A stretch of DNA of 26,699 bases. Origin: Peptococcaceae bacterium BRH_c23 (GTDB lineage: Bacteria; Bacillota_B; Desulfitobacteriia; Desulfitobacteriales; Desulfitobacteriaceae). Position 1 is the stretch's first letter, and each line of letters starts with the position of its first letter. The notes beneath the pieces are model-generated. The model saw only the letters and a program-made list of their open reading frames with translations, was not told where the DNA came from and ran no database searches. The position numbers and the translations under genes were made by a program. Below, piece after piece: positions 4,822 through 22,740 of the stretch. The stretch covers positions 1 to 26,699 of the forward strand of contig LADV01000169.1 of the NCBI GenBank assembly GCA_000961805.1. Direction: 5' to 3'.

Positions 4822-4898
4822 ACAGTAAGGCTTTGGGGGTGCCGGTATTCCGACGCCCTCCCGAGTTTTAATCAAACCAAAAGAAGGTGGAACAAGGC

Positions 4899-5384
4899 AT
4901 GGGATATTTAGAAACAATCAGTAAGGGCTTGGACAAGCTTGCTAGGTGGATTGTTCAAATTAGTGTAGCGGTTATGACTCTAGCTATTGTAGCACAAGTA
5001 GTATGGCGTTACTTTTTACAGCACCCCTTAATTTGGACAGAAGAACTGGCGCGTTACGCTTTAGTCTGGATGTCCTTTATCGGTGCTGGCGTGGCCTTGA
5101 GGGCAAAGGAATTAGCTTATGTTGATTTGTTTATAAGTAAATTACCCATTAAAGCGCAAAAAAACGTATTTATACTTGTGGATATCACGAATACTGTATT
5201 AATCGGGTTTTTGTTGTATTATGGTTTACTGCTAATTGGTTTACCCAGTGTAACTATGCAAAAGTCACCAGCTATGAATATACCTATGAATTACGTTTAT
5301 TTGGGGGTACCAGTGGGACTTGGAATTATGTTTGTCCAGTCAATTGTAAAGCTCGTAAAAAATTTTGGCGGGGAGGTTAGGTGA
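4899..5384 (+). CDS. dctQ: TRAP transporter small permease (DctQ family)
   Basis: About 161 residues with four membrane segments and the family hallmark around residues 40-60: WRYFLQHPLIWTEELARY, with the conserved TEE. DctQ is the small membrane subunit that links the binding protein to the Na+-driven DctM channel. ATG 4899 is chosen because AGAAGGTGG lies about 8 bases upstream; an in-frame GTG at 4887 would overlap that site. The gene lies between dctP and dctM, with only 4 bases before dctM. Confidence 0.92.
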   Translation: MGYLETISKGLDKLARWIVQISVAVMTLAIVAQVVWRYFLQHPLIWTEELARYALVWMSFIGAGVALRAKELAYVDLFISKLPIKAQKNVFILVDITNTVLIGFLLYYGLLLIGLPSVTMQKSPAMNIPMNYVYLGVPVGLGIMFVQSIVKLVKNFGGEVR

Positions 5385-5388
5385 ATAA

Positions 5389-8046: not shown

Positions 8047-8292
8047 TTGATTATTACCGTGTACTTATATCCTCCTTTAAGATTTCCGGATGGTACGGAA
8101 CGGAAACAAATGAAAGTTCAGGACGGATTTACTATTGGAGGTCTACTAGGTGAATTAAAAACCGGGAGAATTTTTGGCGACTATAGCGAGCAGGCGGTAT
8201 TTGCTATCGTTGATGATGATGTGGTTATCGATGATTACGTTTTACAAGCTTGCCAAACCGTTAAAATTCTTATTCAAATGGCAGGAGGTTAA
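8047..8292 (+). CDS. MoaD/ThiS-like ubiquitin-fold sulfur carrier
   Basis: An 81-residue protein ending in Gly-Gly (MAGG), the C-terminal tail that is adenylated and thiocarboxylated in MoaD and ThiS. Length and the hydrophobic strand pattern fit the beta-grasp fold. It starts with TTG preceded by CTGGAGGAGAG. The AOR gene begins 7 bases after its stop, so the pair is translated together. MoaD-like proteins beside AOR genes are common in anaerobes and presumably serve dithiolene formation of the tungstopterin. It lacks the rest of the pterin pathway here, so it must work with enzymes encoded elsewhere. Confidence 0.85.
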   Translation: MIITVYLYPPLRFPDGTERKQMKVQDGFTIGGLLGELKTGRIFGDYSEQAVFAIVDDDVVIDDYVLQACQTVKILIQMAGG

Positions 8293-8299
8293 AAAAACG

Positions 8300-10156
8300 A
8301 TGGATAAAGTGCTAGGCGGTTATGCGGGTGAGATTTTGTGGGTAGATTTAACTAAACGGCAGTGGCATACCGAAAATGTTTCTGAAACAATGGCCAAAAA
8401 GTGGATCGGGGGCAGCGGTTGGGCGGTAGAAACACTCTTTCATCGGGTGCCAGCCGATGCTGATGCGCTGGGTCCAGAAAATATCCTTGGTTTCTTTACC
8501 GGTCCCTTAACCGGAACAGTAATACCGTCGTCGGGACGTCATTGTATTGCAGCTAAATCTCCACTAACTGGCATTTGGGGGGAAGCTAGTGTAGGCGGTA
8601 CTTGGGGTAAAGCCCTTAAACGAGCAGGGTATGATGCTTTAATCCTTACTGGACAGGCTTCGGAACCAGTTTATTTGTGGATTAATAACGGGAAAGTCGA
8701 GATTCGCCCGGCTGGTTCTTTATGGGGTTTGGATACCTATGAGATAGAGGAAGCAGTTCGGGAGCTGACTGATCCGAAAGCTGAAGTATGCTCAATAGGT
8801 CCTGCTGGAGAAAGGATGGCTAAGATCGCCGGTTTATTTACAGACGGGAGGGAAGGACGAACAGCCGCACGTTGTGGGCTAGGTGCAGTTGCAGGCTCAA
8901 AGAAGGTAAAGGCTATTGCTGTATATGGCAATAAACCCCCAGTTCTAGCTTATAAGGATGAGTTACTAAAACGAATTAAAGAAGTAGTCCCTGAGATCAC
9001 TGAAAAAAACAAGGGTTTAACTAATTTCGGCACCCCGGTCCTAGTACTTCCTTGTGAACAGTTAGGAGATTTCCCAGTAAAGAATTGGACCGGAGGGTCA
9101 TGGGAAGAAGGGGCTAAGTCTATTAGCGGCCCCCGGCTTGCCGAGACATATTTGACTGGGCGCTATCATTGTGCGAGTTGTCCAATAGGTTGTGGACGAC
9201 GGGTGGCTATTGACAATGAAGTTCATGACAGCGTGCGTGGCGCCGGCCCTGAATATGAGACGTTAGGCTTATTTGGCGGCTCCTGTCTTATAGATAATTT
9301 GGAAGCTATTTGTTATGCCAATGAGCTTTGTAACCGCTATGGAATAGATACTATTGAGGTCGGCAATCTTGTTGCATTCAGTATGGAGGCTTATGAAAAA
9401 GGGGTTATTGGCAAGCAGGATACAGGCGGGAGAGAGATTCTCTGGGGTGATGCTGAAGCATTGATTGGGTTGATTCAAGAAATGGGTGAAGGATCAGGAT
9501 TCGGTGCTGTATTAGCAGAAGGATTTCCTGCCCTTGCCCAACGCTACGGTGAAATTGTCAACGAAATTGGTATGACTGCCAAAGGTTTAAGTTTTCCCGC
9601 CCATGACCCGAGGGCATATAACAGCCTTGCATTAGGATATGCTACGGCTAACCGGGGAGCAGATCATTTAGAAGCATTTAGTCACGCATTCGAACGCAAC
9701 TTAACAATGCCTGATCTGGGAATTGCTAAATCATTCGATAGATTTTCCAGCCAAGGTAAAGGAGCACTAGTTGCAAAGACACAGAACTTAATGATGGTAT
9801 TTGATTCACTTGCAGTTTGTAAGTTTTTAATGACCGGGGGAATTACCCCAACTGTGTTAGCTGAGTGGCTCTCTTTGGCGACCGGTTCGGAGTGGGATGT
9901 CGAAAGCTTAATGCGTACTGGAGAACGGATTTTCAATTTGAAGCGTCTTTATAACATCAAGTATGGTGTGGATCGTAGGATGGATACCTTACCAGACCGT
10001 ATTTTGAAAAACTCCCGGGCTACCGGCGGGGCTGCAAAGAATTTACCGCCCCTTAATGAAATGTTGGATGAATACTATATTGCTAGGGGATGGGATTCTC
10101 AAGGTATCCCAACAGCAGATAAATTAAAAGAACTGGAAATTAGTATAAAAAATTAG
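8300..10156 (+). CDS. aor: Aldehyde:ferredoxin oxidoreductase (AOR family)
   Basis: This 618-residue protein matches the AOR family throughout. It opens with the usual GGYAGEILWVDLT, and AARCGLGAVAGSKKVKAI lies near 189-206. The [4Fe-4S] ligands are Cys291, Cys294, Cys298 (CASCPIGC) and Cys507 (DSLAVCKF). These cytoplasmic enzymes carry a tungsten (rarely molybdenum) bis-pterin and oxidise aldehydes to acids with ferredoxin; some also run backwards. ATG 8300 is chosen because AGGAGG precedes it and the N-terminus then matches the family; the frame extends upstream over the moaD-like gene. Here it may oxidise acetaldehyde from the aldolase step, or another pathway aldehyde. Confidence 0.95.
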   Translation: MDKVLGGYAGEILWVDLTKRQWHTENVSETMAKKWIGGSGWAVETLFHRVPADADALGPENILGFFTGPLTGTVIPSSGRHCIAAKSPLTGIWGEASVGGTWGKALKRAGYDALILTGQASEPVYLWINNGKVEIRPAGSLWGLDTYEIEEAVRELTDPKAEVCSIGPAGERMAKIAGLFTDGREGRTAARCGLGAVAGSKKVKAIAVYGNKPPVLAYKDELLKRIKEVVPEITEKNKGLTNFGTPVLVLPCEQLGDFPVKNWTGGSWEEGAKSISGPRLAETYLTGRYHCASCPIGCGRRVAIDNEVHDSVRGAGPEYETLGLFGGSCLIDNLEAICYANELCNRYGIDTIEVGNLVAFSMEAYEKGVIGKQDTGGREILWGDAEALIGLIQEMGEGSGFGAVLAEGFPALAQRYGEIVNEIGMTAKGLSFPAHDPRAYNSLALGYATANRGADHLEAFSHAFERNLTMPDLGIAKSFDRFSSQGKGALVAKTQNLMMVFDSLAVCKFLMTGGITPTVLAEWLSLATGSEWDVESLMRTGERIFNLKRLYNIKYGVDRRMDTLPDRILKNSRATGGAAKNLPPLNEMLDEYYIARGWDSQGIPTADKLKELEISIKN

Positions 10157-10228: not shown

Positions 10229-11017
10229 TTGACTGAAGATTTTCCGACGGTTATTGCGGGTACTCAAGTTCGGTCGGTGGCTAAGGCACTTATGATTCTG
10301 AATGTGCTTGCTGAGCACCAGCGGGAAATGTCCCTGGGTGACATAGCTAAGGAGATGCAGTTGGCTAAAAGTACAGCCTACGGCCTGTTGGCTACGTTAA
10401 GAGATTTTGGTTATATAGAGCAGTCCCCTTTGGATGGTAAATACCGTCTAGGAATTCGACTCTTTGAAGTTGGCAATGTCGTTGCCAATAGCTGGGATGT
10501 GCGTAAAGTAGCTACTCCATTCATTCAGACTTTGGTCGATGAACTGGGAGAAACCGTTCACCTGGTAGTTTTAGACAAAGGTGAGGTTTTATATATCGAT
10601 AAGCGAGAGAGTACAAAATCTTTAAGAATTGTCTCGCAAGTCGGTACACGGTTGCCAGCTCACTGTACTGGTGTAGGCAAGGTTTTCTTGGCAAATCTTC
10701 CGATTGATGAGGTAAGACGTATAATTGCCACCAAGGGTTTATCCCGCTATACCAAAAACACGATTACCGACTTCAGACGGTTGGAAGAAGAGCTGAATCT
10801 AGTCAGACAACAGGGTTATGCAATGGATAATGAAGAGATCATGGAAAGTTTGCGTTGTGTAGCGGTGCCGTTGCGGGATCATACTGGTAAAGTTTGTGCC
10901 GCAATTAGCGTATCTGGACCGTCGGCACGGTTTGACGGAGAACAGCTTGAATCCATCGTGGACTTGATGGTTCGGATCGGACGGGAGATCTCGGCAAGTC
11001 TGGGATATAGGGCATAA
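10229..11017 (+). CDS. IclR-family transcriptional regulator, copy 2
   Basis: This 262-residue protein has the same domain plan as copy 1 (1107-1895) and differs from it at about 17 positions, mostly in the effector domain and at the termini. The DNA-binding domain is almost unchanged after residue 11, so both proteins may bind the same operators. It starts with TTG (copy 1 has ATG) after AAAGGAGG. It stands 32 bases before the NadC-like gene and is probably the local regulator of the 11050-17494 operon. Copy, spacer and following gene start align with the first copy without gaps, with a constant offset of 9122 bases. Confidence 0.93.
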   Translation: MTEDFPTVIAGTQVRSVAKALMILNVLAEHQREMSLGDIAKEMQLAKSTAYGLLATLRDFGYIEQSPLDGKYRLGIRLFEVGNVVANSWDVRKVATPFIQTLVDELGETVHLVVLDKGEVLYIDKRESTKSLRIVSQVGTRLPAHCTGVGKVFLANLPIDEVRRIIATKGLSRYTKNTITDFRRLEEELNLVRQQGYAMDNEEIMESLRCVAVPLRDHTGKVCAAISVSGPSARFDGEQLESIVDLMVRIGREISASLGYRA

Positions 11018-11049
11018 GAAAGGGAGATATTATGAAGGAGGTGATTGCA

Positions 11050-11853
11050 ATGGAGTTGCGAGAGTTTCTGTTTGAACCACTCAAAGATAGGTCTTATTCG
11101 TTCGCGATCAGAACTCAGGAAAATGGAATACTGTCAGGAGTAGCTAGGGTAAAAGAACTGGCTATTGACCTCGGGTTGGAAGTTATTTCGTTGGCTGAGG
11201 AAGGATCGTTGCTAATTCCCGGTGCGGTGGTATTTTCCGCGAGGGGCGATGCTGAGATGGTTACCAGGGCCGAGGAAACCCTTATGGGAGCCATTGGAAA
11301 ACCCTCTGGAGTAGCCACTGCTGCTGCAGACGTAGTAAAAAAGGCCAGTCCGGTTAAGGTGGTTTGCGGTGCTTGGAAAAAGATAGGTCAGGCTACTAAG
11401 GGAGAACTACGCCAGGCGGTTATTACAGGTGGGGCAGGACTTCGGATGTCCGAACAACCATTTGTCTATTTAGACAAAAACTATATCCGGATGTTTGGAG
11501 GAGTTACCGCAGCCGTGGCTCAGGCAAAATTATTTGATCCGGATCGGTTAGTAGTTGCCCAATTGCGAGGAGAGGGGCAAGGTATTGTTGAAGAGGCTAG
11601 ATCTGCAGTACAGGCTGGGGCAGGCATTTTGATGGTTGATACCGGTATTCTGGAAGATCTTAAGGCTGTTATGTCTACCGCTATAGCCGATGGCTGGCGA
11701 AAAAGTGTACAGTTGGCCTTTGCAGGCGGGGTGTCTGCGGAAGAATTAGCCGACATCGTAGCACTTGGGCCAGACATTATTGATGTTGGTCGAGCCATTC
11801 TTGATGCTCCGTTACTTGACTTTAGTCTTGATGTGGAAGGCGGGGATCGTTAA
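11050..11853 (+). CDS. NadC-like (quinolinate phosphoribosyltransferase fold) protein, divergent
   Basis: This 267-residue protein follows the NadC/ModD layout: an N-terminal domain with the RAEETLMGAIGKPSGVAT helix (about 74-90) and a barrel ending in GGVSAEELADIVALGPDIIDVG. The catalytic motifs of true NadC are changed, however. TRKT is replaced by GAWKK (107-111), the GGGxxHR region reads GGAGLRM (127-133) and KDNH reads DKNY (142-145). It is therefore unlikely to be the housekeeping NAD enzyme; ModD normally keeps TRK. ATG 11050 has a perfect AAGGAGGT 7 bases upstream. The stop overlaps the next start by one base (TAATG), tying it to the MoCF protein. A role in a pyridine-nucleotide cofactor or in substrate conversion is possible but unproven. 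Confidence 0.72.
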   Translation: MELREFLFEPLKDRSYSFAIRTQENGILSGVARVKELAIDLGLEVISLAEEGSLLIPGAVVFSARGDAEMVTRAEETLMGAIGKPSGVATAAADVVKKASPVKVVCGAWKKIGQATKGELRQAVITGGAGLRMSEQPFVYLDKNYIRMFGGVTAAVAQAKLFDPDRLVVAQLRGEGQGIVEEARSAVQAGAGILMVDTGILEDLKAVMSTAIADGWRKSVQLAFAGGVSAEELADIVALGPDIIDVGRAILDAPLLDFSLDVEGGDR

Positions 11854-12758
11854 TGTTGGAGTGGGATCTTTTGGAGAAAACAACCTTTTGGATCGATGAT
11901 ATTGACTTGGACAATGCTAACTTAGGTCAGGTTGCAGAGGTTGCTGCCCAAGCGCTGGGATTGCTGCCGGAGGAAGTGATGGTTGTTGACGTGCGACCGG
12001 GATTATTGGCTTTTGACATTTTGCAAAAAAAGGTCAAACCGGAGGCGGTGGCTGGCAAAGGAGAATCTATTCTCCAAGGTTTGGCAAGTCTTCAGGGAGT
12101 CCTGATGGGGCCGAATGCAGCTATACATTCGGAAGGTGTTTTAGGATTTATTGCACTGGATCCAAAAGAAGTTGGAGAGGTGCTTAGAACTTCGGCAGAT
12201 CAGGCTAGGCAGGTCAGCGAGGCGGTGGCTCGGAGAGCAATAGTCTTTGCTTCCGGTACAGAAGTAATAGCCGGTAAGATTGAGGATACAAATTCGCCGT
12301 ATATAATGCAGCAACTAGAAAAACAGGGCTTCACCGCACGGTTTGGAGGGGTATTGGAAGACAATGCCAAGCTAGCGTCCGCTCGTATTGAGGAGGCTTT
12401 AGAAGCGGGTTTTGGTTTGGTGATAACAACTGGCGGAGTTGGGGCCGAAGATAAAGACTATAGTATAGAAGCTATCTTACGTTTGGATCCGCAAGCGTTC
12501 ACACCGTGGATTTTGAAATTTACCCCGGACTACCGTCGCCATCACAAGGAGGGTGTACGCATAGCCGTGGGACAGATGGGCATTGCGCGTATAGTCGCCC
12601 TGCCTGGACCGCATGAAGAGGCAATTTTAGGATGTAATTCTCTTTTAACGGGACTAGCCCAGGGACTGGATGCTGAGTCGATAGCAGAGTCAATCGCCGC
12701 AGTAATAAGAGAGCGCTGGCGGCAAGCTATGAAAAACGGAGGGTATAAACATGAATAA
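11853..12758 (+). CDS. MoCF-domain (CinA/MoeA-type) protein
   Basis: A 301-residue protein. The C-terminal part (about 128-290) is a molybdopterin-binding (MoCF) fold of the CinA-N/COG1058 type, with GTEVIAGKIEDTN (135-147), TTGGVGAEDKD (192-202) and LPGPHEE (250-256). The N-terminal ~125 residues are not recognised. Relatives either handle pterin cofactors (MoeA, MoaB) or hydrolyse nucleotides of the NAD cycle (CinA). Translation is coupled to the NadC-like gene by a one-base overlap, and it overlaps the hydratase gene by 8 bases. It could service the tungsten cofactor of AOR or act on a pyridine nucleotide together with its partner; the sequence does not decide. Confidence 0.7.
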   Translation: MLEWDLLEKTTFWIDDIDLDNANLGQVAEVAAQALGLLPEEVMVVDVRPGLLAFDILQKKVKPEAVAGKGESILQGLASLQGVLMGPNAAIHSEGVLGFIALDPKEVGEVLRTSADQARQVSEAVARRAIVFASGTEVIAGKIEDTNSPYIMQQLEKQGFTARFGGVLEDNAKLASARIEEALEAGFGLVITTGGVGAEDKDYSIEAILRLDPQAFTPWILKFTPDYRRHHKEGVRIAVGQMGIARIVALPGPHEEAILGCNSLLTGLAQGLDAESIAESIAAVIRERWRQAMKNGGYKHE

Positions 12759-13524
12759 GAGGGACATTGCCGCTAAATTATTACAGGCGGAGAGTGAAAG
12801 GGTGCCCATTGACACCCTGACAGAGACATACCCAGGGTTAACGGTTGAGGATGCCTATCGTATCCAACTAGAGGGCATCAGTATGAAGTTAGCTCAGGGT
12901 CGAAAGGTGATTGGCAAGAAGATTGGTTTAACCAGTAAGGGTATGCAAAAACTGTTAGGAGTTAATGAACCAGACTACGGACACCTGTTTGACAATATGT
13001 TGCTCTTAGAGGGGGAACCATGCCAGCGTCAGGAACTTCTCTTGCCCAAGGTGGAAGGGGAATTGGCTTTTGTCTTAAAGGATACCCTTAAGGGCCCTGG
13101 GGTAACTATAGCCGACGTATACCGTGCAACAGAAGGAGTCATGCCAGCCTTTGAGATAGTTGACAGTCGGATCCGTGATTGGAAGATAAAACTAGCGGAC
13201 ACTATTGCCGACAATGGTTCCAGTGCCCGCCTGGTCTTAGGCAGCCGCTTGGTTCCAGTACAAGATCTTGATTTGCGCCTAATCGGCATGGTGTTGGAGA
13301 AGAATGGAGAAATGGTCAGCAGTGGAGCTGGTGCAGAGGTATGGGGGCATCCTGCGGCTGCGGTTGCATGGCTAGCCAATAAGCTAGCTGAATTTGATAT
13401 CGCATTGGAAGCAGGAGAAATTATTTTATCAGGGGCAGTGACAGCGGCCGAAGTTGCTGAGTCGGGGGATGTCTTCACGCTGTCTTTCGACGGGTTGGGC
13501 TGTTTGAATTTAAAATTTATTTAA
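12751..13524 (+). CDS. mhpD: 2-oxopent-4-enoate hydratase / oxalocrotonate decarboxylase family
   Basis: A 257-residue member of the MhpD/DmpE/DmpH family. The divalent-metal glutamates are present as Glu102 and Glu104 (KVEGE) and Glu135 (FEIVDSRI), spaced exactly as Glu106/108/139 of E. coli MhpD. The SRIRDWKI and GDVFT-type C-terminal segments also match. The hydratase converts 2-hydroxypenta-2,4-dienoate to 4-hydroxy-2-oxovalerate; the sister 4-oxalocrotonate decarboxylase has the same fold and similar length, so that activity cannot be excluded. It is followed by acylating dehydrogenase and aldolase genes, giving the complete lower meta-cleavage set. ATG is preceded by CGGAGGG. Confidence 0.9.
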   Translation: MNKRDIAAKLLQAESERVPIDTLTETYPGLTVEDAYRIQLEGISMKLAQGRKVIGKKIGLTSKGMQKLLGVNEPDYGHLFDNMLLLEGEPCQRQELLLPKVEGELAFVLKDTLKGPGVTIADVYRATEGVMPAFEIVDSRIRDWKIKLADTIADNGSSARLVLGSRLVPVQDLDLRLIGMVLEKNGEMVSSGAGAEVWGHPAAAVAWLANKLAEFDIALEAGEIILSGAVTAAEVAESGDVFTLSFDGLGCLNLKFI

Positions 13525-13550
13525 AAAATATCGATTGGGAGATGTAATTG

Positions 13551-14426
13551 GTGGATAAAATTAAGGTAGCTGTGATTGGACCAGGAAATATTGGCACCGA
13601 CTTGATGTTTAAGATCCTCAAAAGTCAGCACCTGGAAATGGGTCTGCTGACTGGTATTGTGGAATCTGAAGGGATTCAAAGGGCTCGGAAAATGGGAATT
13701 AACACTTCGATTGAAGGGGTTAACGCAGTGCTTCAAGACCCGGATATTAAAATCGTTTTTGACGCAACCGGGGCAAAGCCACATCTTAGGCATGCTCCGC
13801 TACTCAAGGAAGCGGGTAAAATAGCGATTGATTTGACACCTGCCTCGATCGGGCCCTATTGTGTTCCCTGTGTTAATTTAGAAGAATTGCTGGATGAACC
13901 TAATGTTAACATGGTGACGTGTGCAGGACAGGCAACGGTTCCAATAGTTTATGCCATTAACAAGGTAGCTTCCGTTACCTATGCGGAGATTGTCGCCAGT
14001 CTATCTAGTAAAAGCGCTGGTCCGGGAACCCGTCAAAACATCGATGAATTTACGGAAACCACCTCTAAGGCCTTGGTACAAGTTGGGGGAGCCAAGCGAG
14101 GGAAGGCGATCATCGTGTTAAATCCTGCTGAACCACCTGTGATGATGGCGAACACTATTTATGTAGAAGTGGAGAATCCTGACGAAAAAGCTATTACAGC
14201 CGCTGTTCAAATGATGGTGAACGAGATTCAAAAATACGTGCCAGGTTATAGACTTCGTGTTCCGCCCATCATTGATGGTCACAAAGTCACCATCATCATT
14301 CAGGTAGAAGGGGCCGGCGATTTTCTGCCCAAATATTCCGGAAACCTTGATATCATCACTTCGGCAGCCGTATCCTTCGCGGAAAAGCTTGCCCAAAAAT
14401 TAATTAGAAAGGACGTGATCGCATGA
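13551..14426 (+). CDS. mhpF: Acetaldehyde dehydrogenase (acylating)
   Basis: About 291 residues, matching the MhpF/DmpF family. It has an N-terminal Rossmann motif ([14 protein letters not shown]), catalytic cysteine at about residue 125 in the segment [11 protein letters not shown], and the [16 protein letters not shown] segment. It oxidises acetaldehyde with NAD+ and CoA to acetyl-CoA and in this family forms a channelling complex with the aldolase encoded next. GTG 13551 is preferred since GGGAG lies 9 bases upstream; TTG 13548 would add one residue. The gene overlaps the aldolase start by 4 bases (ATGA), as expected for complex partners. Confidence 0.95.
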
Positions 14427-15427
14427 GCATGGGTAAGATTCATCTGGTGGACACAACATTGCGAGACGGCAGTCACGCAGTAAGCCATCAGTACAGCGTG
14501 GAACAAGTGGCGGCAGTTGCCGGCGGACTTGATGCGGCTGGAATTGAATATATCGAGGTGTCTCACGGGGACGGCTTAGCGGGCTCTTCGTTTAATTATG
14601 GCAGGTCTGCCACGGATGAGGAGGAATTGATCAAAGCGGCAGCAGAGGTCATCAAAAATGGAATTTTAACTGTTTTATTGATTCCCGGGATCGGCACTAT
14701 TGAGGATCTGAAACGGGCTGAGGCTTGCGGAGCTAAGGCGGTACGGGTTGCTACCCATGTGACAGAGGCGGATACTGCTGAGCAACATATACGGATGGCT
14801 AAGAGCCTGGGAATGCAGGCATTTGGTTTCTTGATGATGAGCCACATGGCTCCACCGGAAAAAGTCGTTGAGCAGGCCAAACTGTTTGAGTCGTATGGCG
14901 CAGATTTCATCTATGTGGCCGATTCGGCCGGGGCCATGCTGCCGGACGATGTTAGAGCCCGGGTTGGTGCTGTAGTCCAAGCAGTTGGGATACCCGTCGG
15001 GTTTCACGCCCACAACAATTTGACCTTGGCCACAGCTAATTCCCTCGCAGCCTTGGAAGTTGGGGCAACCTTCCTGGATGGGACTTGCCGAGGCTTGGGG
15101 GCCGGGGCGGGAAATACCCAAATTGAAGCGCTCGTGGGGGTTTTGAATAAAGTCGGTTATCAGACGGGCGTGGATTTATACAAAATCATGGATGTTGCTG
15201 AAGATTTGGTTGAGCCCATGATGCACCGGCCGCAGGTAGTGCGCAACGCCCCATTTATGCTGGGCTATGCCGGTGTGTATTCAAGTTTTCTCTTACACAC
15301 TTACCGGGCGGCTGAACGATTTAACCTTGATCCCCGGGATATCTTGACAGAACTAGGCAAGAGACGAATGGTTGGCGGACAGGAAGATATGATTGTTGAT
15401 GTGGCGTATCAGTTGGCGAAACAATAA
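14423..15427 (+). CDS. mhpE: 4-hydroxy-2-oxovalerate aldolase
   Basis: A 334-residue HMGL-like TIM-barrel aldolase of the MhpE/DmpG class. The opening motif DTTLRDGSH (10-18) supplies Arg14, metal ligand Asp15 and His18, and FHAHNN supplies metal ligands His195 and His197. The C-terminal dimerisation segment (from about 270) typical of DmpG is present. It splits 4-hydroxy-2-oxovalerate into pyruvate and acetaldehyde, and the aldehyde is passed to the acylating dehydrogenase. Length fits the family (about 340). ATG overlaps the preceding stop (ATGA) and has AAAGGA upstream. Confidence 0.96.
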
Positions 15428-15440
15428 AAAGGAGGGTATC

Positions 15441-16061
15441 ATGAAAAACGTAAATTTGCTGGCGGTCATTGACAAAGAGAAGTGCATCGGCTGTAAAACG
15501 TGTGTGAAGGTTTGTCCAGTATTAGCCATCAAGATGGAGGACCGGTTAGCAATTGTTGACGGTGAAATGTGCCGCGGTTGTAACGCTTGCGAGCAACGTT
15601 GCCCAGTTTATGCGATAAATATGGTAAAAAGGGAACAACCTGTCGTTGTTAAGGTTGATGTCGGTAGTGTAGATTATGCTAAGATTGAGGATCTCTGCCG
15701 GAAGGCTAAATTTCATCCCGAACAGTTGATTTGCTATTGTACAGCGACTCGGGCGGAAGAAATTGCTGCTGCGATTATATTAGGGGCCGATTCTCCGGAA
15801 AAACTTTCCTTACTGACGGGCGCTCGTACCGGCTGTAAAGTTGAATGTATTCAACCCTTGTTACGTCTTCTCGAGGCAGCCGGTGTCGAACCGCAACCGC
15901 CAGAAGGTGGATGGCAGTGGTATGGTAAGACAGTGACAGTGTGGGATATTTCAGAGGAAGTAAAACAAAAATATGCGAGCCGGGGATTTTACTTTGATGA
16001 AGACATCAAACTTTTAGATCGAGTAGTTGCCGCCCCGCTGCAAGGAAGGAGTGAATCTTAA
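15441..16061 (+). CDS. Ferredoxin / BFD-like multi-cluster Fe-S protein
   Basis: A 206-residue protein with two [4Fe-4S] motifs, CIGCKTCVKVCP (Cys15/18/21/25) and CRGCNACEQRCP (Cys44/47/50/54). A BFD-like [2Fe-2S] module follows, with Cys98, Cys100, Cys132 and Cys136 and the usual Thr-Arg-Ala-Glu-Glu-Ile start. The C-terminal ~55 residues are not recognised. It is probably an electron carrier. ATG 15441 follows AAGGAGGG. Its stop overlaps the start of the LarA-like gene (TAATG), so the two are likely partners. It could supply electrons to, or receive them from, a pathway oxidoreductase or AOR; no target is shown by sequence. Confidence 0.85.
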   Translation: MKNVNLLAVIDKEKCIGCKTCVKVCPVLAIKMEDRLAIVDGEMCRGCNACEQRCPVYAINMVKREQPVVVKVDVGSVDYAKIEDLCRKAKFHPEQLICYCTATRAEEIAAAIILGADSPEKLSLLTGARTGCKVECIQPLLRLLEAAGVEPQPPEGGWQWYGKTVTVWDISEEVKQKYASRGFYFDEDIKLLDRVVAAPLQGRSES

Positions 16062-17494
16062 TGCGACCTCCAATCAAGCCGGTACCGCCGCGTTCATCCC
16101 AATATGGGATTGATCCAGACTTAGTTAAAACCCGTGTCAGTGAGCTGCCTGGAATGACTTCGGTCATGCTGACCGATCTTTTCCCGGATCTTCCGGAAGT
16201 GATTTTCCCCAGTGATGCGGGAGTGTTAGTGATTCGCCAAGCTGCTGAAGCCGCTTTGCAAAACGTCGATATGAGCAAAATTAAGCCAGAACACTCTGTG
16301 AATATTCTTGCCTCCCATCACGGTTTTACCCTAATGGGTGGTGAGCCCTATGCGGAAATGCTCAAGACCCTTAAAGATGTTGTCGAGGCACGCACGGGTT
16401 GTCGCAACGTTCGCCTGCGGGCGGGTGTGGGACTTCGCTTCCGCGAGACGGAGGAGTATATCAAACGCCATGGCCTGGATGTCTATTTCGATGGCAAAGC
16501 TATTGGGGTAGCGCCGATTGATCAAGGGATTCCTATTGAGACGGAGATAGGAACCTTATTCGGACTTAAAAAGGTTTACGATGCAGACTGGATTATCCAT
16601 GCTCACAACAGCGATGTTCGTGAGGTTCATTTTCATCGCCAAGTTGATCGGGCTGTAAAGCCTTTCGGAATGTCTTATGCCCGAATCGAGACTCGTTCTA
16701 CGTACCATCAAAACCTCGGACCGAGAGCGGCTAACTTCACGGCCCGCGCTATTTTCGATTCAACCTTCGTGCAAAGTAAATTTGCCTTTGCTTCGTTTCT
16801 TACAGTCGCACCCAACGGGATCATCGGGGTGGATGTCGACAGTGATCTGTATGCCCTTAATGATAGGGTAACTCAAACTGGTTTACGTTATTACGGCAAA
16901 ATAATGACCTTATTCGGAGAACTTGAGGACTATATTTGTGCTTTAGATTTTCCTTGCCCAGTCGTTTACGTTTTCTCAGCGGGTGTCATCTATGCCAATG
17001 TTGTGGGCGCTAACACTGATCTTTATGATCTCGACTTACCTTTACCAGCTTATACCTGGTATACAGAGGCATTTTACGGTAAACAGGGTCGGCCTTTGCT
17101 TGCTGATATTCCCACAGTTAATCGGGCCATTAAAATGTGTGTACAAAATTATGCCTGGACCGGTTATCCGACGGCTTTTTTTAGTGAGCACATTCCGACG
17201 ATTGTTGTCGGACAGGAACAAGCCGAACTTTTTAATCGCGATCCGCAAAATCTTACCTATATGGACCATGCCATGGTGGCTGAGAGCACGGAGTCGGCTA
17301 TGGAATTTGCCTATAAGACCACAGGGACGAGAAAGGTCGTTATTTTTGATGGGGCTGTCGGTGGTATTAATGTCAGCGAATCTTTGGCCGAGGAACTGTT
17401 GCAGAAAGCTCCCGCTGTCAGCGCTAAAGTCGATGAAATCTTATTGCCGAAATGGCTGCGGCAGAGAGGAATTGAATTAGTACGCCCTAAATAG
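16061..17494 (+). CDS. Divergent lactate racemase (LarA)-like, putative NPN enzyme
   Basis: A 477-residue protein with LarA-like order: an N-terminal domain, then a GIPIETEIG..VYDADWII segment like the GTPV..ADLVI of LarA, then His190, Lys200 and His216. Their spacing (10 and 16) equals that of His174, Lys184 and His200 in Lactobacillus LarA, where Lys184 holds the nickel-pincer nucleotide and His200 binds nickel. The GFSGGRK sequence between them is lost. By alignment the catalytic His108 position is Leu125 and the Arg75 position is Phe89, so the reaction or substrate probably differs from lactate racemisation. LarE, LarB and LarC are encoded downstream on the same strand, which supports cofactor use. 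It overlaps the Fe-S gene by one base. The match to LarA is by hand alignment. Confidence 0.72.
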   Translation: MRPPIKPVPPRSSQYGIDPDLVKTRVSELPGMTSVMLTDLFPDLPEVIFPSDAGVLVIRQAAEAALQNVDMSKIKPEHSVNILASHHGFTLMGGEPYAEMLKTLKDVVEARTGCRNVRLRAGVGLRFRETEEYIKRHGLDVYFDGKAIGVAPIDQGIPIETEIGTLFGLKKVYDADWIIHAHNSDVREVHFHRQVDRAVKPFGMSYARIETRSTYHQNLGPRAANFTARAIFDSTFVQSKFAFASFLTVAPNGIIGVDVDSDLYALNDRVTQTGLRYYGKIMTLFGELEDYICALDFPCPVVYVFSAGVIYANVVGANTDLYDLDLPLPAYTWYTEAFYGKQGRPLLADIPTVNRAIKMCVQNYAWTGYPTAFFSEHIPTIVVGQEQAELFNRDPQNLTYMDHAMVAESTESAMEFAYKTTGTRKVVIFDGAVGGINVSESLAEELLQKAPAVSAKVDEILLPKWLRQRGIELVRPK

Positions 17495-17567: not shown

Positions 17568-18911
17568 ATGAGAGCTAGATCTTTAAGACAGTGGTTACAG
17601 GTTTTGAATACTGATGGTATGTTAAAACATGTTGATAAAAAAGTGAATCTTTCTTACGAACTGGCAGCTGTGGGTAAAAAAGCGGATGGACGCTTTGCGG
17701 TACAGTTTGATAAGCCGGGTGATTCGCAAGTACCCGTGGTAACAGGTATCGGTGGCAGCAGGGAACTCCTGGCACGGGCCATGGGAGTATCTGTCGATAG
17801 GGTGGCTGAGCATTTTGCCTGGGCTCAAGCCAATCCTATGGAATGCACCATAGTGGAAGCCGGGGCTGCGCCAGTAAAGGAAAGGGTTACCCATGATGTT
17901 GACCTGGGCACATTACCAATTCCCGTCCATCACGAAAAAGACGGCGGGCCATATATTACCGCAGGAGTGCTAATCGCCAAGGATCCAAAGACTGGCGTAA
18001 GTAATCTCTCGATCCACAGGCTCCATGTTTTAGGTCCTAATCGCTTGGGAATCTTGATCTTGCCCCGTCATCTCTCCCATTTTCACAGGATGGCTGAAGC
18101 AGAAGGAAAACCCCTGGAAGTAGCGATAGCTATTGGTTTGGATCCCATATTATTGTTAGCTTCCCAGGCTTTGACATCGCCTGGTTATGATGAGTATACT
18201 ATTGCCAGTGCTCTATATGGACAACCCCTAGAGTTAGTGAAAGGGGAGACTGTTGACCTCGAAGTACCTGCCCAGGCTGAAATAGTTTTAGAAGGCTATC
18301 TCCTGCCCGCTGTCCGAGAAATGGAAGGTCCTTTTGGCGAATATCCCAAATATTATGGCCCAGCTTCGCCGAAACCGGTTATTGAACTGACGGCAATGAC
18401 TTCTCGAATGGACCCTATCTTCCAGACCATTGTACCGGCAACCAAGGAACACTTGCTTCTGGGATCAGTTCCTCGAGAAGGAGGCTTGATACAAATAATT
18501 AGAAACGCAGTGCCGAATACCAGAAGTGTTCACCTTACTCCTGGAGGTACTTGCCGCTATCATCTGGCTATTTCTATCGACAAACAAAATGAGGGTGAGG
18601 CCAAAAATGCGATGTTTGCTGCTTTTGGCAGTAGTCAGGAAATTAAGCATGTAGTAGTGGTGGACAAAGATGTGGATATTTTCAATCCTGAAGATGTGGA
18701 GTGGGCTGTAGCTACTCGTTGTCAGGCCGGACGTGATGTCTTTATCGTTGAAAGGGCATTAGGCAATAAACTGGATCCTTCTTCTGATGATGGGATAAGC
18801 GATAAAATGGGTATTGATGCGACCGTGCCTTCAGATGCTCCAGTAGGACGCTTTGAGCGAATTCGTATTCCAGGGGAAGACAAAATTAAGCTCGAAGATT
18901 ATTGTTCCTAA
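17568..18911 (+). CDS. UbiD-family prenyl-FMN-dependent decarboxylase
   Basis: A 447-residue UbiD-family enzyme. The catalytic Glu-Arg-Glu set is visible: Arg151 (SIHRLHV), Glu253 and Glu258 (EGPFGE), with the glutamates five apart as in Fdc1. The C-terminal DVDIFNPEDVEWA stretch is also typical. These enzymes reversibly decarboxylate unsaturated or aromatic acids using prenylated FMN. The flavin prenyltransferase is encoded next. The family also holds hydroxybenzoate and furan-2,5-dicarboxylate (HmfF) decarboxylases; the LHVLGPNRLGILILP region recalls the HmfF side, but this is an impression only. It starts with ATG after AGGATGGTG, 73 bases after the LarA-like gene, probably the same transcript. 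Confidence 0.92.
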   Translation: MRARSLRQWLQVLNTDGMLKHVDKKVNLSYELAAVGKKADGRFAVQFDKPGDSQVPVVTGIGGSRELLARAMGVSVDRVAEHFAWAQANPMECTIVEAGAAPVKERVTHDVDLGTLPIPVHHEKDGGPYITAGVLIAKDPKTGVSNLSIHRLHVLGPNRLGILILPRHLSHFHRMAEAEGKPLEVAIAIGLDPILLLASQALTSPGYDEYTIASALYGQPLELVKGETVDLEVPAQAEIVLEGYLLPAVREMEGPFGEYPKYYGPASPKPVIELTAMTSRMDPIFQTIVPATKEHLLLGSVPREGGLIQIIRNAVPNTRSVHLTPGGTCRYHLAISIDKQNEGEAKNAMFAAFGSSQEIKHVVVVDKDVDIFNPEDVEWAVATRCQAGRDVFIVERALGNKLDPSSDDGISDKMGIDATVPSDAPVGRFERIRIPGEDKIKLEDYCS

Positions 18912-18978: not shown

Positions 18979-19545
18979 GTGACGAAACGTATAGTTGTAG
19001 GAATTACAGGTGCAAGCGGCTCTATCTATGCCTACACCCTCATAGAAACATTGGCCGCAATGGGTTGGGATGTGGAGGTCATTTTAACCCAGATAGGCGA
19101 GAAAGTACTGGCATATGAATGTGGGGTGGAGATAAAGGCCTTTTCTTCAGGAATTCATGTTCACGCCATAGACGACCTCTTTTCATCGTTAGCTAGTGGT
19201 TCATTTCGTAATGATGGAATGGTGGTTATTCCATGTTCAATGAATACTTTAGGTTTACTAGCCAACGGTATAGGGGATAATCTGCTTGCCCGGGCTGCCC
19301 AAGTGATGTTAAAAGAGAGGCGACCGCTGGTAGTAGTCCCGCGCGAGATGCCTTATAATATCATTCACTTGGAGAACATGTTACGGCTTGCTCGGGCTGG
19401 GGGCATTATTTTGCCTGCATCCCCAGGTTTCTATCATCATCCCCAGAGTATGGACGATTTAGTAAGGCATGTTGTCGGGCGCGTACTAGATCAGTTGGGC
19501 ATAGAACACACTCTGTACAAGCGTTGGGAAGGCGTCTTAACATAA
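18979..19545 (+). CDS. ubiX: UbiX-type flavin prenyltransferase
   Basis: A 188-residue flavoprotein-fold enzyme of the UbiX/Pad1 family, with GITGASGSIYAYTLIETL at the N-terminus, VVIPCSMNTLG around 75-85 and the PREMPYNIIHLENML and ASPGFYHHP segments. It prenylates FMN with dimethylallyl phosphate to make the cofactor of UbiD-type decarboxylases, so it serves the enzyme encoded just upstream. GTG start after AAGGAGGGG. Full length for the family (about 190). Confidence 0.95.
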   Translation: MTKRIVVGITGASGSIYAYTLIETLAAMGWDVEVILTQIGEKVLAYECGVEIKAFSSGIHVHAIDDLFSSLASGSFRNDGMVVIPCSMNTLGLLANGIGDNLLARAAQVMLKERRPLVVVPREMPYNIIHLENMLRLARAGGIILPASPGFYHHPQSMDDLVRHVVGRVLDQLGIEHTLYKRWEGVLT

Positions 19546-19934: not shown

Positions 19935-20759
19935 GTGGAATTAGTCAATAGGGAAAAGTTGAAAACACTGCGTAAAAATTTAAGAGATATGAAAAGTGTC
20001 GTTATTGCTTTTTCAGGTGGAGTTGACAGTACTTTTCTGCTTAAAGTTGCGGTAGAAGTACTAGGCGACAAAGCCTTAGCAGTCACAGCTACTTCCTCAA
20101 CATATCCTGCTCAGGAGCAGGCAGAAGCTCAAAAGCTGGCGCGCGAATTCGGGGCTAGACATAAACTAATCGTTTCGGAAGAATTGGAGATTGAAGGTTT
20201 TGCAGATAATCCGCCTAACCGGTGTTATTTCTGTAAAAATGAACTATTCTCCAAATTGTTAGTAGTCGCCAAGGATGAGGGAATAAATTACGTTCTTGAT
20301 GGTTCTAACTTTGATGACTTAAATGACCACAGACCGGGAATGAAAGCAGCAAAAGAATTGGGCGTACGCAGTCCACTGAAAGAAGCAGGCATCACAAAAG
20401 AGGAAATTCGTTGTTTTTCCAAGGAAATGGGTTTATCTACCTGGAATAAACCTTCCTTTGCTTGTCTTAGTTCCCGTTTTCCGTATAGCTCTAGAATAAC
20501 GAAAGAAAAGTTGAATCAAGTAGATCGAGGAGAAATGTTGTTGCGTTCCTTGGGTTTTCAACAGTTTCGATTACGTCACCATGGTGAAATTGCCCGGATC
20601 GAGATCAGCCGAGATCAATTCTTGCTTATGGTAGAAAAAGTAGACCAAGTCGTGGAAGAGCTTAAAGCTTGTGGTTTTATTTATGTTACCATGGACCTGC
20701 AAGGTTACCGGACGGGGAGTATGAATGAAATTTTATCTGAAGAGGACAAAAAAGTATGA
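19935..20759 (+). CDS. larE: LarE, ATP-dependent sulfur transferase for NPN cofactor
   Basis: A 274-residue PP-loop enzyme with SGGVDST at 27-33. LarE activates the carboxylates of the pyridinium mononucleotide intermediate with ATP and inserts sulfur, making the dithio pincer. Cys177 (PSFACLSSR) corresponds to the sacrificial Cys176 of Lactobacillus LarE. Two further cysteines, Cys97 and Cys100 (NRCYFC), are present; in LarE proteins with three cysteines these bind a [4Fe-4S] cluster that allows catalytic sulfur transfer. GTG start after AAGGAGGG. Overlaps larB by 4 bases. Together with LarB and LarC it forms the full NPN pathway. Confidence 0.94.
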   Translation: MELVNREKLKTLRKNLRDMKSVVIAFSGGVDSTFLLKVAVEVLGDKALAVTATSSTYPAQEQAEAQKLAREFGARHKLIVSEELEIEGFADNPPNRCYFCKNELFSKLLVVAKDEGINYVLDGSNFDDLNDHRPGMKAAKELGVRSPLKEAGITKEEIRCFSKEMGLSTWNKPSFACLSSRFPYSSRITKEKLNQVDRGEMLLRSLGFQQFRLRHHGEIARIEISRDQFLLMVEKVDQVVEELKACGFIYVTMDLQGYRTGSMNEILSEEDKKV

Positions 20760-21517
20760 ACGAAAAAAGCCTACGTGAATTACTCATAGGAATCAAGCAT
20801 AACGAAATTAGCGTTGATACAGGATTAGAAAAATTGAAAGATTTGCCCTTTGAAGATTTAGGTTTTGCCAAAATCGACCATCATCGCCAGCTCAGGCAGG
20901 GATTTCCCGAAGTTATCTATAGTGCAGGCAAAACAACTGAACAGATCGTTACCATCGTCGAAAAGTTGGCTGAAAGGGCAGATAATAACATTCTAGCCAC
21001 TAGGGCTAATTATGATGTTTATAAAGCAGTTGCCGCACGAATTCCTGACTCTGAGTATTATGATCTTGCTCGCTTAATCGTGATACGACGAGGTAAACAG
21101 GAAAGACGAGGACACATCTTAGTGGTGAGTGCGGGAACCTCAGACATACCGGTAGCAGAAGAAGCGGCTATTACCGCTGAAGTGATGGGGAACCGGGTGG
21201 AACGGCTTTATGACACCGGGGTAGCCGGTATTCATCGTTTATTAAGCCAAACGGATAAGCTTTTGGCCGCACGGGTCATAATCGTAGTTGCTGGAATGGA
21301 AGGAGCCTTGGTCAGTGTAGTTGGAGGGTTGGTGGACAAACCGGTGATTGCCGTGCCCACCAGTGTTGGTTATGGTGCCAGTTTCGGCGGGTTAGCCGCT
21401 TTGCTGGCTATGTTGAATAGTTGTGCCAGTGGTGTGAGTGTGGTCAATATCGATAATGGTTTCGGTGCAGGTTATCAGGCTAGTTTAATCAATAAATTAG
21501 GGGAGGCTGGGGCATGA
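20756..21517 (+). CDS. larB: LarB, pyridinium carboxylase/hydrolase for NPN cofactor
   Basis: A 253-residue protein with a C-terminal domain (about 118-250) like phosphoribosylaminoimidazole carboxylase (PurE): SAGTSDIPVAEEAA at 125-138 and PVIAVPTSVGYGASFGG near 196-212. LarB carboxylates the pyridine ring of nicotinic acid adenine dinucleotide and releases AMP, the first NPN step. Cys223 lies where Lactobacillus LarB has Cys221, which forms a covalent link to the substrate. It overlaps both neighbours by ATGA, so larE-larB-larC are translationally coupled. Confidence 0.95.
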   Translation: MNEKSLRELLIGIKHNEISVDTGLEKLKDLPFEDLGFAKIDHHRQLRQGFPEVIYSAGKTTEQIVTIVEKLAERADNNILATRANYDVYKAVAARIPDSEYYDLARLIVIRRGKQERRGHILVVSAGTSDIPVAEEAAITAEVMGNRVERLYDTGVAGIHRLLSQTDKLLAARVIIVVAGMEGALVSVVGGLVDKPVIAVPTSVGYGASFGGLAALLAMLNSCASGVSVVNIDNGFGAGYQASLINKLGEAGA

Positions 21518-22740
21518 GAATCGCCTACTTTCATTGTTTTGCCGGGATAAGCGGAGATATGACCTTAGGGGCTTTAGTTGATGCCGGTTTAGACTGGGAT
21601 CAACTGCGATCAGATTTAGCCAAACTTCCTTTAAGTGGTTATCAATTACAAATGGAGAAAGTGATTAAACAAGGCATCAGTGGGACCAAGGTACACGTTT
21701 TAACGGAAGAAGGCCATGTACACCGGCATCTGCGGCATGTTCAAGAAATAATTAGTAATAGTACGCTGCCGGACGTTGTTAAAGAAAAAAGTATCCAGGT
21801 TTTTACTCGGTTGGCTGAAGCCGAAGCAAAAGTACATCAAACATCTATCGACCGTATTCACTTTCATGAAGTCGGAGCGATGGATGCCATCATTGATATC
21901 GTTGGTTCAGTTATTGGTTTGTGGCGGCTGGGGATTGAGGAAGTATATGCCTCACCAGTGCATACCGGAACAGGCTTTACTAAATGTGCCCACGGGATAA
22001 TGCCAGTTCCAGCACCAGCGACTCTGGAACTATTGCAAGGGGTTCCCATTTACTCCCGGGATGTAGAAAAAGAATTAGTTACTCCAACTGGAGCGGCAAT
22101 TATTACCGCATATTGTCAAAATTTCGGCAGTATGCCGCCGATGCGGGTTAATAATATCGGTTATGGGGCAGGTGAACATGATTTAGTCATTCCAAACTTG
22201 CTGCGTTTAACCATTGGTGAGAAACTGGATCAGGTTAGTCACGACGGGCATATTCGTTACGGCGGCAAGGGTGATGTCCACCAAGGAGAAGCCCTGATGA
22301 TGGAAGCCAATATAGATGACATGAACCCGGAGTTTTTTGATTACCTGATTAACAAATTCCTTAAAGCTGGAGCGATGGATGTTTTCTTGCGAAAAATCCA
22401 AATGAAAAAAAATCGCCCAGCCATAGTATTAAGTTTATTGATTCATACCCATCAATTAGAAACATTCTATCAGCAAATATTTTCCGAGACAACGTCCATC
22501 GGGGTTAGGGTTTACCCTGTGACCAAGTATATGCTTCCTTATGAAATAAAGACGGTGCAGACCAGGCTAGGTCAAGCTAAGGTGAAAGTTGCCCGTTATC
22601 AGGATAGCCTGCGTAATGTGGCTCCAGAATATGAGGATTGCCGTAAATTAGCAGAAGAGCAACAGATACCGCTTAAAGAAATTTACGATATTATCAAATA
22701 CGCAGCTTACCAACAATTAGAACAAAAGGATCATAGCTAG
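21514..22740 (+). CDS. larC: LarC, nickel insertion protein for NPN cofactor
   Basis: A 408-residue protein starting with the LarC signature CFAGISGDMTLGALVDAG. HFHEVGAMDAIIDIVG follows near 116-131, and a C-terminal domain begins with MEANIDDMNPE. LarC is the CTP-dependent cyclometallase that inserts nickel into the pincer ligand. It is a single continuous frame here, unlike Lactobacillus where the two halves are joined by ribosomal frameshifting. His-rich segments (for example EEGHVHRHLRH) fit nickel handling. The most likely client in this window is the LarA-like protein at 16061-17494. Confidence 0.95.
   Translation: MRIAYFHCFAGISGDMTLGALVDAGLDWDQLRSDLAKLPLSGYQLQMEKVIKQGISGTKVHVLTEEGHVHRHLRHVQEIISNSTLPDVVKEKSIQVFTRLAEAEAKVHQTSIDRIHFHEVGAMDAIIDIVGSVIGLWRLGIEEVYASPVHTGTGFTKCAHGIMPVPAPATLELLQGVPIYSRDVEKELVTPTGAAIITAYCQNFGSMPPMRVNNIGYGAGEHDLVIPNLLRLTIGEKLDQVSHDGHIRYGGKGDVHQGEALMMEANIDDMNPEFFDYLINKFLKAGAMDVFLRKIQMKKNRPAIVLSLLIHTHQLETFYQQIFSETTSIGVRVYPVTKYMLPYEIKTVQTRLGQAKVKVARYQDSLRNVAPEYEDCRKLAEEQQIPLKEIYDIIKYAAYQQLEQKDHS

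Follow-up and report, generated by a model that had tools for sequence, protein, structure and literature searches.

A LarA-fold protein from a Peptococcaceae bacterium as a candidate nickel-pincer enzyme for the reductive opening of 2-furoate

The Locus and Its Genes

The stretch of DNA described here, referred to as the window, consists of 26,699 nucleotides of contig LADV01000169.1 from Peptococcaceae bacterium BRH_c23. An open reading frame (ORF) at positions 16061-17494 of the forward strand, beginning with ATG, encodes a protein of 477 amino acid residues for which the label FroA was adopted in this report. The reading that best fits the data, and which is favored here with modest confidence, is that the FroA of the window is a nickel-pincer enzyme that reductively opens the ring of 2-furoate. 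The genes of the window that bear on this proposal are as follows.

3778..6669, forward strand: TRAP transporter DctP-DctQ-DctM, three ORFs (Pfam); proposed furan-acid uptake
6691..7887, forward strand: iron-containing alcohol dehydrogenase (Fe-ADH); proposed oxidation of furfuryl alcohol and hydroxymethylfurfural (HMF)
8174..10156, forward strand: aldehyde:ferredoxin oxidoreductase (AOR; AFOR_N/C); proposed oxidation of furfural and formylfuran
10229..11017, forward strand: IclR-family regulator, first gene of the operon (IclR_C, HTH_IclR), 14 bases before the QPRT-like gene
11032..11853, forward strand: quinolinate phosphoribosyltransferase-like (QPRT-like) protein (Pfam QRPTase_N/C; nadC 95.9 bits against a cut-off of 198.4); proposed cofactor gene
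11853..12758, forward strand: MoCF-domain protein (Pfam MoCF_biosynth; N-terminal part of ~120 residues); proposed cofactor maturase
12751..13524, forward strand: 2-oxopent-4-enoate hydratase family, DmpE/HpaH-like (TIGR03220 307.6 bits, cut-off 408.8; PDB 2eb4, 8ih6)
13548..14426, forward strand: acylating acetaldehyde dehydrogenase, DmpF (TIGR03215 462.5 bits, cut-off 282.25)
14423..15427, forward strand: 4-hydroxy-2-oxovalerate aldolase, DmpG (TIGR03217 525.9 bits, cut-off 286)
15441..16061, forward strand: iron-sulfur protein (Pfam Fer4, two motifs, and Fer2_BFD, a BFD-like [2Fe-2S] domain); proposed electron donor
16061..17494, forward strand: FroA, LarA-fold, 477 residues; proposed nickel-pincer 2-furoate reductase (ring-opening)
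17568..18911, forward strand: predicted HmfF-type UbiD, 2,5-furandicarboxylate decarboxylase yielding 2-furoate (PDB 6h6v, 609 bits)
18979..19545, forward strand: UbiX flavin prenyltransferase, supplying prenylated FMN to UbiD (TIGR00421 219 bits, cut-off 108.9)
19935..20759, forward strand: larE, sacrificial sulfur transferase (TIGR00268 346 bits, cut-off 150)
20756..21517, forward strand: larB (NF033503 307 bits, cut-off 175)
21514..22740, forward strand: larC, unsplit nickel insertase (PF01969 498 bits; TIGR00299, NF052512)

From the IclR gene through the QPRT-like, MoCF, dmpE, dmpF, dmpG, and iron-sulfur genes to FroA, the intergenic gaps range from -8 to 23 bases, and the stop codon of the iron-sulfur gene overlaps the FroA start in the string TAATG. 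The UbiD and UbiX genes follow FroA at distances of 73 and 67 bases. The larE, larB, and larC genes overlap by 4 bases each, with larE beginning 389 bases beyond UbiX; a first-pass annotation of this DNA had placed them nearby, and they are indeed real genes at 19935-22740. The iron-sulfur gene is listed from a TTG at 15393, which is probably wrong; the true start is probably the ATG at 15441, which is preceded by the purine-rich ribosome site AAAAGGAGGG. Foldseek matches of the MoCF protein include MoeA/gephyrin E, MoaB, and CinA. No repeats were found around the FroA ORF. A second IclR regulator, at 1107-1895, has 93% protein identity and 94.5% DNA identity to that at 10229-11017, and, judging from these sequences, the pair is a recent duplication flanking the SSF/TRAP/Fe-ADH/AOR block.

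The FroA Family and Its Fold

FroA matches no Pfam family at E values up to 0.1, PF09861 included, and only noise-level matches were obtained with NCBIfam. A sequence search of the PDB likewise gave nothing convincing, with two matches at E values of 0.4-0.5. Homologues are numerous, however: 1328 proteins were found at E values up to 0.001, and where these are named at the source they are nearly always called "hypothetical protein". The closest relatives among the 120 matches listed are from Desulfosporosinus (98% identity). A first set of 41 FroA loci was obtained across bacterial and archaeal genomes, to which 13 were added to give the 54 loci considered below (labels of the form L### and G### denote the loci and genomes of this analysis). 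When the most distant of the locus proteins, that of L041 (45% identity), was employed as the query, 972 proteins were retrieved, which indicates two or more large branches in the family.

Structure comparison revealed a two-domain LarA fold in the FroA model. The LarA superfamily was represented by PF09861/PF21113 and by the structures 5huq, 9eia, and 9q3k, of which 9q3k was the joint top VIA match. On the basis of the model, it is near certain that FroA has the LarA fold, as the first-pass annotation had supposed. The profile search that it had also proposed was less decisive. Lys 200 and His 216 of FroA aligned with the NPN (nickel-pincer nucleotide) lysine, Lys 184, and the nickel-binding histidine, His 200, of LarA in all three runs that spanned the site, but the probabilities were 49%, 0.9%, and 2.7%, depending on the LarA set used. 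A fourth run gave 0.3% with an alignment that stopped short of the site. The FroA family is compact (Neff 2.7), and enlarging its alignment gave no gain for LarA matching. Homology to LarA at the level of sequence was rejected as proof, being too weak alone.

Residues of the Putative Cofactor Site

The numbering of LarA and the roles of its residues, namely Lys 184 as the tether for NPN, His 200 as the nickel ligand, and His 108 and His 174 as the acid/base pair, are those given in PMC7583248 and PMC12611868. In FroA, His 190, Lys 200, and His 216 are separated by 10 and 16 residues, just as the first-pass annotation had described for this ORF. The pattern H-x9-K-x15-H also occurred in 40 of 5000 shuffles of the FroA sequence, and the spacing alone is therefore suggestive and no proof. 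Rather, the assignment is settled by the fold and by the invariance of two of the three residues. Lys 200 and His 216 are unchanged in all 256 aligned family members (the window sequence included), in keeping with the conservation that had been expected; His 190 departs from it, the position being occupied by His in 147, Tyr in 102, and Trp in 7 sequences. His 190 aligned with His 174 of LarA in two of the three runs but not in the third. All of the forms with Tyr or Trp are at most 48% identical to the FroA of the window. By contrast, His 192 is a histidine in 255 of the 256.

Several other active site residues of LarA have been replaced. His 108 aligns with Arg 126 in all three profile alignments covering the position, and not with Leu 125 as originally proposed; residue 126 is Arg in 139 and His in 2 of the 256 sequences. 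Arg 126 and His 190 are kept in every sequence more than 48% identical to that of the window, whereas below this value residue 190 is mostly Tyr and residue 126 varies. The substitution of the substrate-binding Arg 75 by Phe 89 was correctly recognized in the first-pass annotation; the two residues align in all three runs spanning the site, and Phe is found there in 253 sequences. The position of Asp 72 corresponds to residue 86, which is His in 138 and Glu in 118. As had also been noted, the GFSGGRK signature is gone: the GxSGGxK/GxSGGRK loop is absent from FroA. On these sequences, then, the two residues that hold NPN are the constant ones, and the residues behind the racemase activity of LarA are not preserved. 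The description of FroA as a LarA-fold protein that lies outside PF09861, retains the NPN lysine and the nickel histidine, and lacks the complete racemase acid/base set is thus supported, as is its placement in a catabolic operon with larEBC.

The loss of the GxSGGxK loop might suggest that FroA no longer binds metal or NPN and serves a structural or regulatory purpose, and a cofactor cannot be demonstrated by computation. Yet 21 positions are invariant among the 256 sequences, including Lys 200, His 216, Arg 208, Arg 212, Asp 185, Arg 187, Glu 188, Asn 81, Tyr 97, and Glu 129. This invariance argues for an active site, and a non-binding FroA is considered very improbable.

Gene Neighborhood across the Family

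The iron-sulfur gene is present at all 54 loci. QPRT-like and MoCF genes occur at 46 and 43 of them, and dmpG, dmpE, and dmpF at 44, 41, and 41, respectively; many of the absences reflect contigs that end inside the cluster. No QPRT or MoCF gene is present in the stretch covered for L015. Of the 113 genomes in the class of G007, those with MoCF (E values up to 1e-25) are precisely the 13 with FroA, which marks MoCF as dedicated to it. Indeed, both the QPRT-like and MoCF proteins look like dedicated partners of FroA. Both families handle nucleotide-type cofactors, and it is possible that the QPRT-like protein, which scores far under the NadC cut-off, and the adjoining MoeA/CinA-like protein constitute a new cofactor-maturation pair.

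The iron-sulfur partner bears on whether FroA could be an NPN racemase or epimerase of a 2-hydroxy acid with unusual active site residues. The LarA fold and the retained lysine and histidine would suit such an enzyme, and LarA homologues missing one catalytic histidine exist, one of which has been solved with NPN (PMC12611868). These known homologues keep His 108, however, whereas FroA has Arg 126 at that position and has lost His 190 in 109 of 256 sequences. Furthermore, a racemase would leave the iron-sulfur protein with no role and the step from furoate to oxopentenoate with no enzyme. Such a function is regarded as improbable. The action on 2-hydroxy acids put forward in the first-pass annotation is accordingly not supported; the iron-sulfur protein, the genes for 2-oxopent-4-enoate, and the HmfF-type UbiD point instead to a net reduction of 2-furoate.

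Several other neighbors were observed. A BenE-type carrier of the benzoate family is encoded at 23 of the 54 loci, and a homologue of M24 creatinase/prolidase-like peptidases at 25 (for example, L002:12829-13938). M20 peptidases lie beside FroA in L006 and L035. Perhaps these M24 and M20 peptidases hydrolyze furoyl-amino acid conjugates. TRAP homologues adjoin FroA and UbiD in L001, L003, and L007. The distant FroA proteins of L117 and L041 (45-47% identity) have as neighbors SDR, CN-hydrolase, MFS, and HpcH/HpaI aldolase genes in the former and AMP-binding ligase, CoA-transferase III, and EthD genes in the latter; these relatives probably act on another substrate. Archaeal clusters are represented by L031-L034, L036, and L040, from metagenome-assembled genomes (MAGs) of Archaeoglobus, Borrarchaeota, Methanomassiliicoccus, and Thermoproteota. 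In L033 and L034, which are short contigs, and in L040, only the core of iron-sulfur protein, FroA, QPRT, and MoCF was seen, with no dmpEFG.

Linkage to the Nickel-Pincer Genes

At 15 of the 54 loci, larB, larC, or larE is present, and these include loci from Desulfosporosinus, Desulfotomaculum, Clostridium, a myxobacterial MAG, and an Archaeoglobus MAG. No PF09861 gene was found in these 15 stretches; the nearest on a shared contig is ~69 kb from larC (G024). Because larC is present in 78 of the 82 genomes in the class of G011, its genome-wide co-occurrence with FroA was rejected as evidence for NPN, and physical linkage was used in its place. In that class, larC lies within ~9 kb of FroA in six of the nine FroA genomes. 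Among nine further genomes from the class of G007, it is on the same contig within ~20 kb in six (G134, G174, G180, G184, G185, and G186).

Six of 40 FroA genomes, one isolate and five MAGs, have no PF09861 match (E values up to 0.001) yet carry larB. The isolate is Moorella thermoacetica DSM 21394, in which FroA does not have larB, larC, and larE as neighbors; LarC from M. thermoacetica has served to study nickel insertion (PMC11796402). In G210, larC is again located away from FroA, and PF09861 matches are sub-threshold only. Four loci (L019, L021, L024, and L031) do have a gene of the PF09861 type close to FroA, as judged by a PF09861/LarA_C scan of the L019 member, which is ~0.5 kb downstream of FroA, and by homology for the others; larB, larC, and larE were not found in these four stretches. 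At one of the 54 loci (L108:12788-15497), genes for CbiM with PDGLE, CbiQ, and ABC proteins, of the nickel/cobalt uptake type, directly follow FroA and BenE. Taken together with the conserved site, it is likely that FroA carries a nickel-pincer cofactor, whether standard or modified.

Linkage to Furan Degradation

The UbiD protein of the window scores 609 bits against 6h6v, which is HmfF from P. thermopropionicum (PtHmfF; PMC8988006), and is 63% identical to it; the best score against any other kind of protein is 221. HmfF converts furandicarboxylate to 2-furoate (PMC8988006, PMC7976604, PMC6644310). His 295 and Arg 303 of the window protein align with His 296 and Arg 304 of HmfF; the furan-specific histidine, numbered His 297 in PMC7976604, is thereby conserved. 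Assignment as an ordinary UbiD or as a pyrrole decarboxylase was dropped in view of this score. The furoate proposal had been drawn from the atom balance given below before the match to HmfF was seen.

Among the 113 genomes in the class of G007, 13 contain FroA and 8 an HmfF-type UbiD (E values up to 1e-100), all of the latter being within the 13; the hypergeometric P value of 2.5e-9 presumes independent genomes and, as these are related, exaggerates their independence. In seven of the eight, HmfF and FroA are on one contig within ~20 kb. In G210, the UbiD matches 6h6v at every one of 445 residues, with FroA 19 kb away, and thus a FroA gene occurs in the same genome as the characterized HmfF. 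Of seven linked regions, five were examined (L120-L124), and in all five the order AOR, Fe-ADH, HmfF is found, with homologues of the window AOR at 55-65% and of the window Fe-ADH at 45-66% identity. An AOR is known to oxidize furfural (PMC10816221). It is likely that the window's branch of FroA belongs to a furan pathway. Two other contexts were considered and dropped: degradation of nicotinate or quinolinate, given the low NadC score of the QPRT-like protein and the lack of any other pyridine gene seen, and a reversed, biosynthetic DmpEFG route, given that the IclR regulator, uptake genes, and HmfF favor catabolism.

Proposed Mechanism

Addition of 2H to 2-furoate, C5H4O3, gives C5H6O3, the formula of 2-oxopent-4-enoate, and the missing step is therefore a two-electron reduction with ring opening. 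Among the conserved genes to which no known step can be assigned, FroA and the iron-sulfur protein are the likely catalyst. In the scheme proposed here, LarB, LarE, and LarC would make the cofactor, which the QPRT-like and MoCF proteins would probably finish or load. A nickel-pincer-type cofactor attached to Lys 200, with its nickel held by His 216, would carry out a net two-electron reduction and no racemization. From reduced ferredoxin, electrons would reach the FroA cofactor by way of the co-translated 4Fe-4S/BFD protein. Attack of the cofactor hydride at C5 of 2-furoate would place a carbanion at C4; by our reasoning, this charge is β to the ring oxygen, and thus elimination would open the ring directly to the dienolate. 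Expulsion of the ring oxygen would give 2-hydroxypenta-2,4-dienoate (2-oxopent-4-enoate), which DmpE would hydrate and DmpG cleave to pyruvate and acetaldehyde, with DmpF forming acetyl-CoA. Furoate itself would be supplied from furandicarboxylate, furfural, and furan alcohols by HmfF/UbiX, AOR, and Fe-ADH. The heats of formation of furan and crotonaldehyde indicate that opening the ring reductively is clearly exergonic, and ferredoxin would therefore be a strong enough donor. Of this scheme, the fold, the conserved anchor residues, the linkage of the genes, the resemblance of the UbiD to HmfF, and the atom balance are shown, and the cofactor, the path of the electrons, the substrate, and the mechanism are inferred.

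A broader proposal can be offered only tentatively. FroA, the iron-sulfur protein, the QPRT-like protein, and MoCF may together represent a new and self-contained kind of aromatic-ring reductase with a tail-modified, ferredoxin-charged nickel-pincer cofactor, built by LarB/E/C and then QPRT/MoCF, that delivers hydride to heteroaromatic acids, with 2-furoate the substrate in the window's branch and other rings in the Tyr 190 branch. If true, this would constitute a net-redox use of NPN and give one answer as to the NPN-using proteins of genomes that have no LarA.

Points against the Proposal and Alternative Explanations

A number of observations weigh against a nickel-pincer furoate reductase. 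With respect to the cofactor, neither NPN nor furoate was placed in the FroA model, no lar gene is seen at 39 of the 54 loci, and the near-ubiquity of larC in the class of G011 deprives its co-occurrence there of meaning. Four of 41 FroA genomes (G005, with L023, and G030, G032, and G035), namely the complete chromosome of Breznakiella and three MAGs, have no larB, larC, or larE over the cut-off. The LarA residues that grip the cofactor phosphate and ribose (Arg 75, Asp 72, and GxSGGxK) are replaced, a change that would allow for a modified cofactor tail. The replaced residues and these four genomes, along with the confinement of MoCF to FroA genomes and the frequency of QPRT, would be accommodated by a reductase with the LarA fold, acting in this same pathway, for which the QPRT-like and MoCF proteins make or alter another metal cofactor of the pyridine type, bound at Lys 200/His 216. 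Against it stand the lar genes adjoining FroA at 15 loci, from clostridia, a myxobacterial MAG, and an Archaeoglobus MAG, and the distance of at most 2 kb between larC and HmfF in G180, G184, and G186. In addition, all four genomes with no larB, larC, or larE carry PF09861 proteins, with two to five matches each, so that FroA is not alone in being affected; such cells must obtain NPN or manage without it in either case. A non-standard cofactor is viewed as unlikely.

With respect to the substrate of the nickel-pincer reductase, the window hydratase falls under the DmpE cut-off. The dmpEFG genes are missing in L040, L117, and L011 and in part in L018 and L036, all long stretches, and 2-oxopent-4-enoate thus need not be the product of every member. 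A UbiD of at least 70% identity lies near FroA in only four of the first 41 loci (L001, L003, L007, and L039), and any UbiD homologue in eight, leaving 33 with none. That last figure would fit a reductive enzyme of the same kind acting mainly on another heteroaromatic acid, such as pyrrole-2-carboxylate, thiophene-2-carboxylate, or picolinate, with HmfF as a side input. By our own arithmetic, pyrrole-2-carboxylate + 2[H] + H2O would yield 2-oxopent-4-enoate and ammonia, and the distant FroA branch has different neighbors. The UbiD of the window scores only ~108 bits against the entries for the pyrrole-2-carboxylate decarboxylase PA0254, however, and the combination of AOR, Fe-ADH, and HmfF is well matched to furan alcohols and aldehydes. 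A main substrate other than furoate is judged quite unlikely.

Relation to Known Systems and Significance

FroA differs from the LarA superfamily in having no PF09861 match, in the replacement of GxSGGRK, Asp 72, Arg 75, and His 108, in the variability of its His 174 equivalent, and in its iron-sulfur partner and proposed net reduction. LarASp and LarABw, His-to-Asn homologues, resemble FroA in having a LarA fold with one catalytic histidine missing and a reaction described as unknown (PMC12611868). In them, His 108 and the ribose Asp are retained, Lys takes the place of Arg 75, and His 174 is lost (PMC12611868), whereas FroA loses His 108 and, in the window's branch, keeps His 190. The aerobic furoate (Trudgill) pathway, HmfABCDE with HmfFG, shares with the window the HmfF/UbiX step to 2-furoate and leads to 2-oxoglutarate rather than to the 2-oxopent-4-enoate proposed here (PMC6604932). 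Neither furoyl-CoA synthetase nor furoyl-CoA dehydrogenase was present among the 25 Pfam-scanned ORFs of the window (of 40 with at least 90 residues), and neither was a ring-cleaving dioxygenase. The hydratase, aldolase, and acetaldehyde dehydrogenase are those of the lower pathway for catechol meta-cleavage, DmpEFG; unlike that pathway, the dienol of the window would arise from reduction of a furan ring. In anaerobes, enzymes of the benzoyl-CoA reductase type perform ferredoxin-linked reduction of aromatic rings. FroA would differ from these in fold and cofactor, in requiring no CoA ester, and in cleaving a C-O bond. In full-text searches of the literature, neither this gene cluster nor any furoate reductase or NPN enzyme dependent on ferredoxin was described in the titles and openings of abstracts listed, with few subscription journals covered.

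Approximately 15% of the genomes analyzed in PMC11796402 have larB, larE, and larC but no larA, and the NPN users there are described as unknown. FroA is a concrete candidate for such a user in anaerobes. A 2018 review described an oxygen-requiring pathway for furfural and HMF together with two anaerobic degraders and anticipated further pathways (PMC6604932). The operon would be such an anaerobic furan pathway, one that proceeds with no CoA esters of furoate and ends in acetyl-CoA and pyruvate, and an enzyme that opens furans reductively would help to remove furfural and HMF from biomass hydrolysates.

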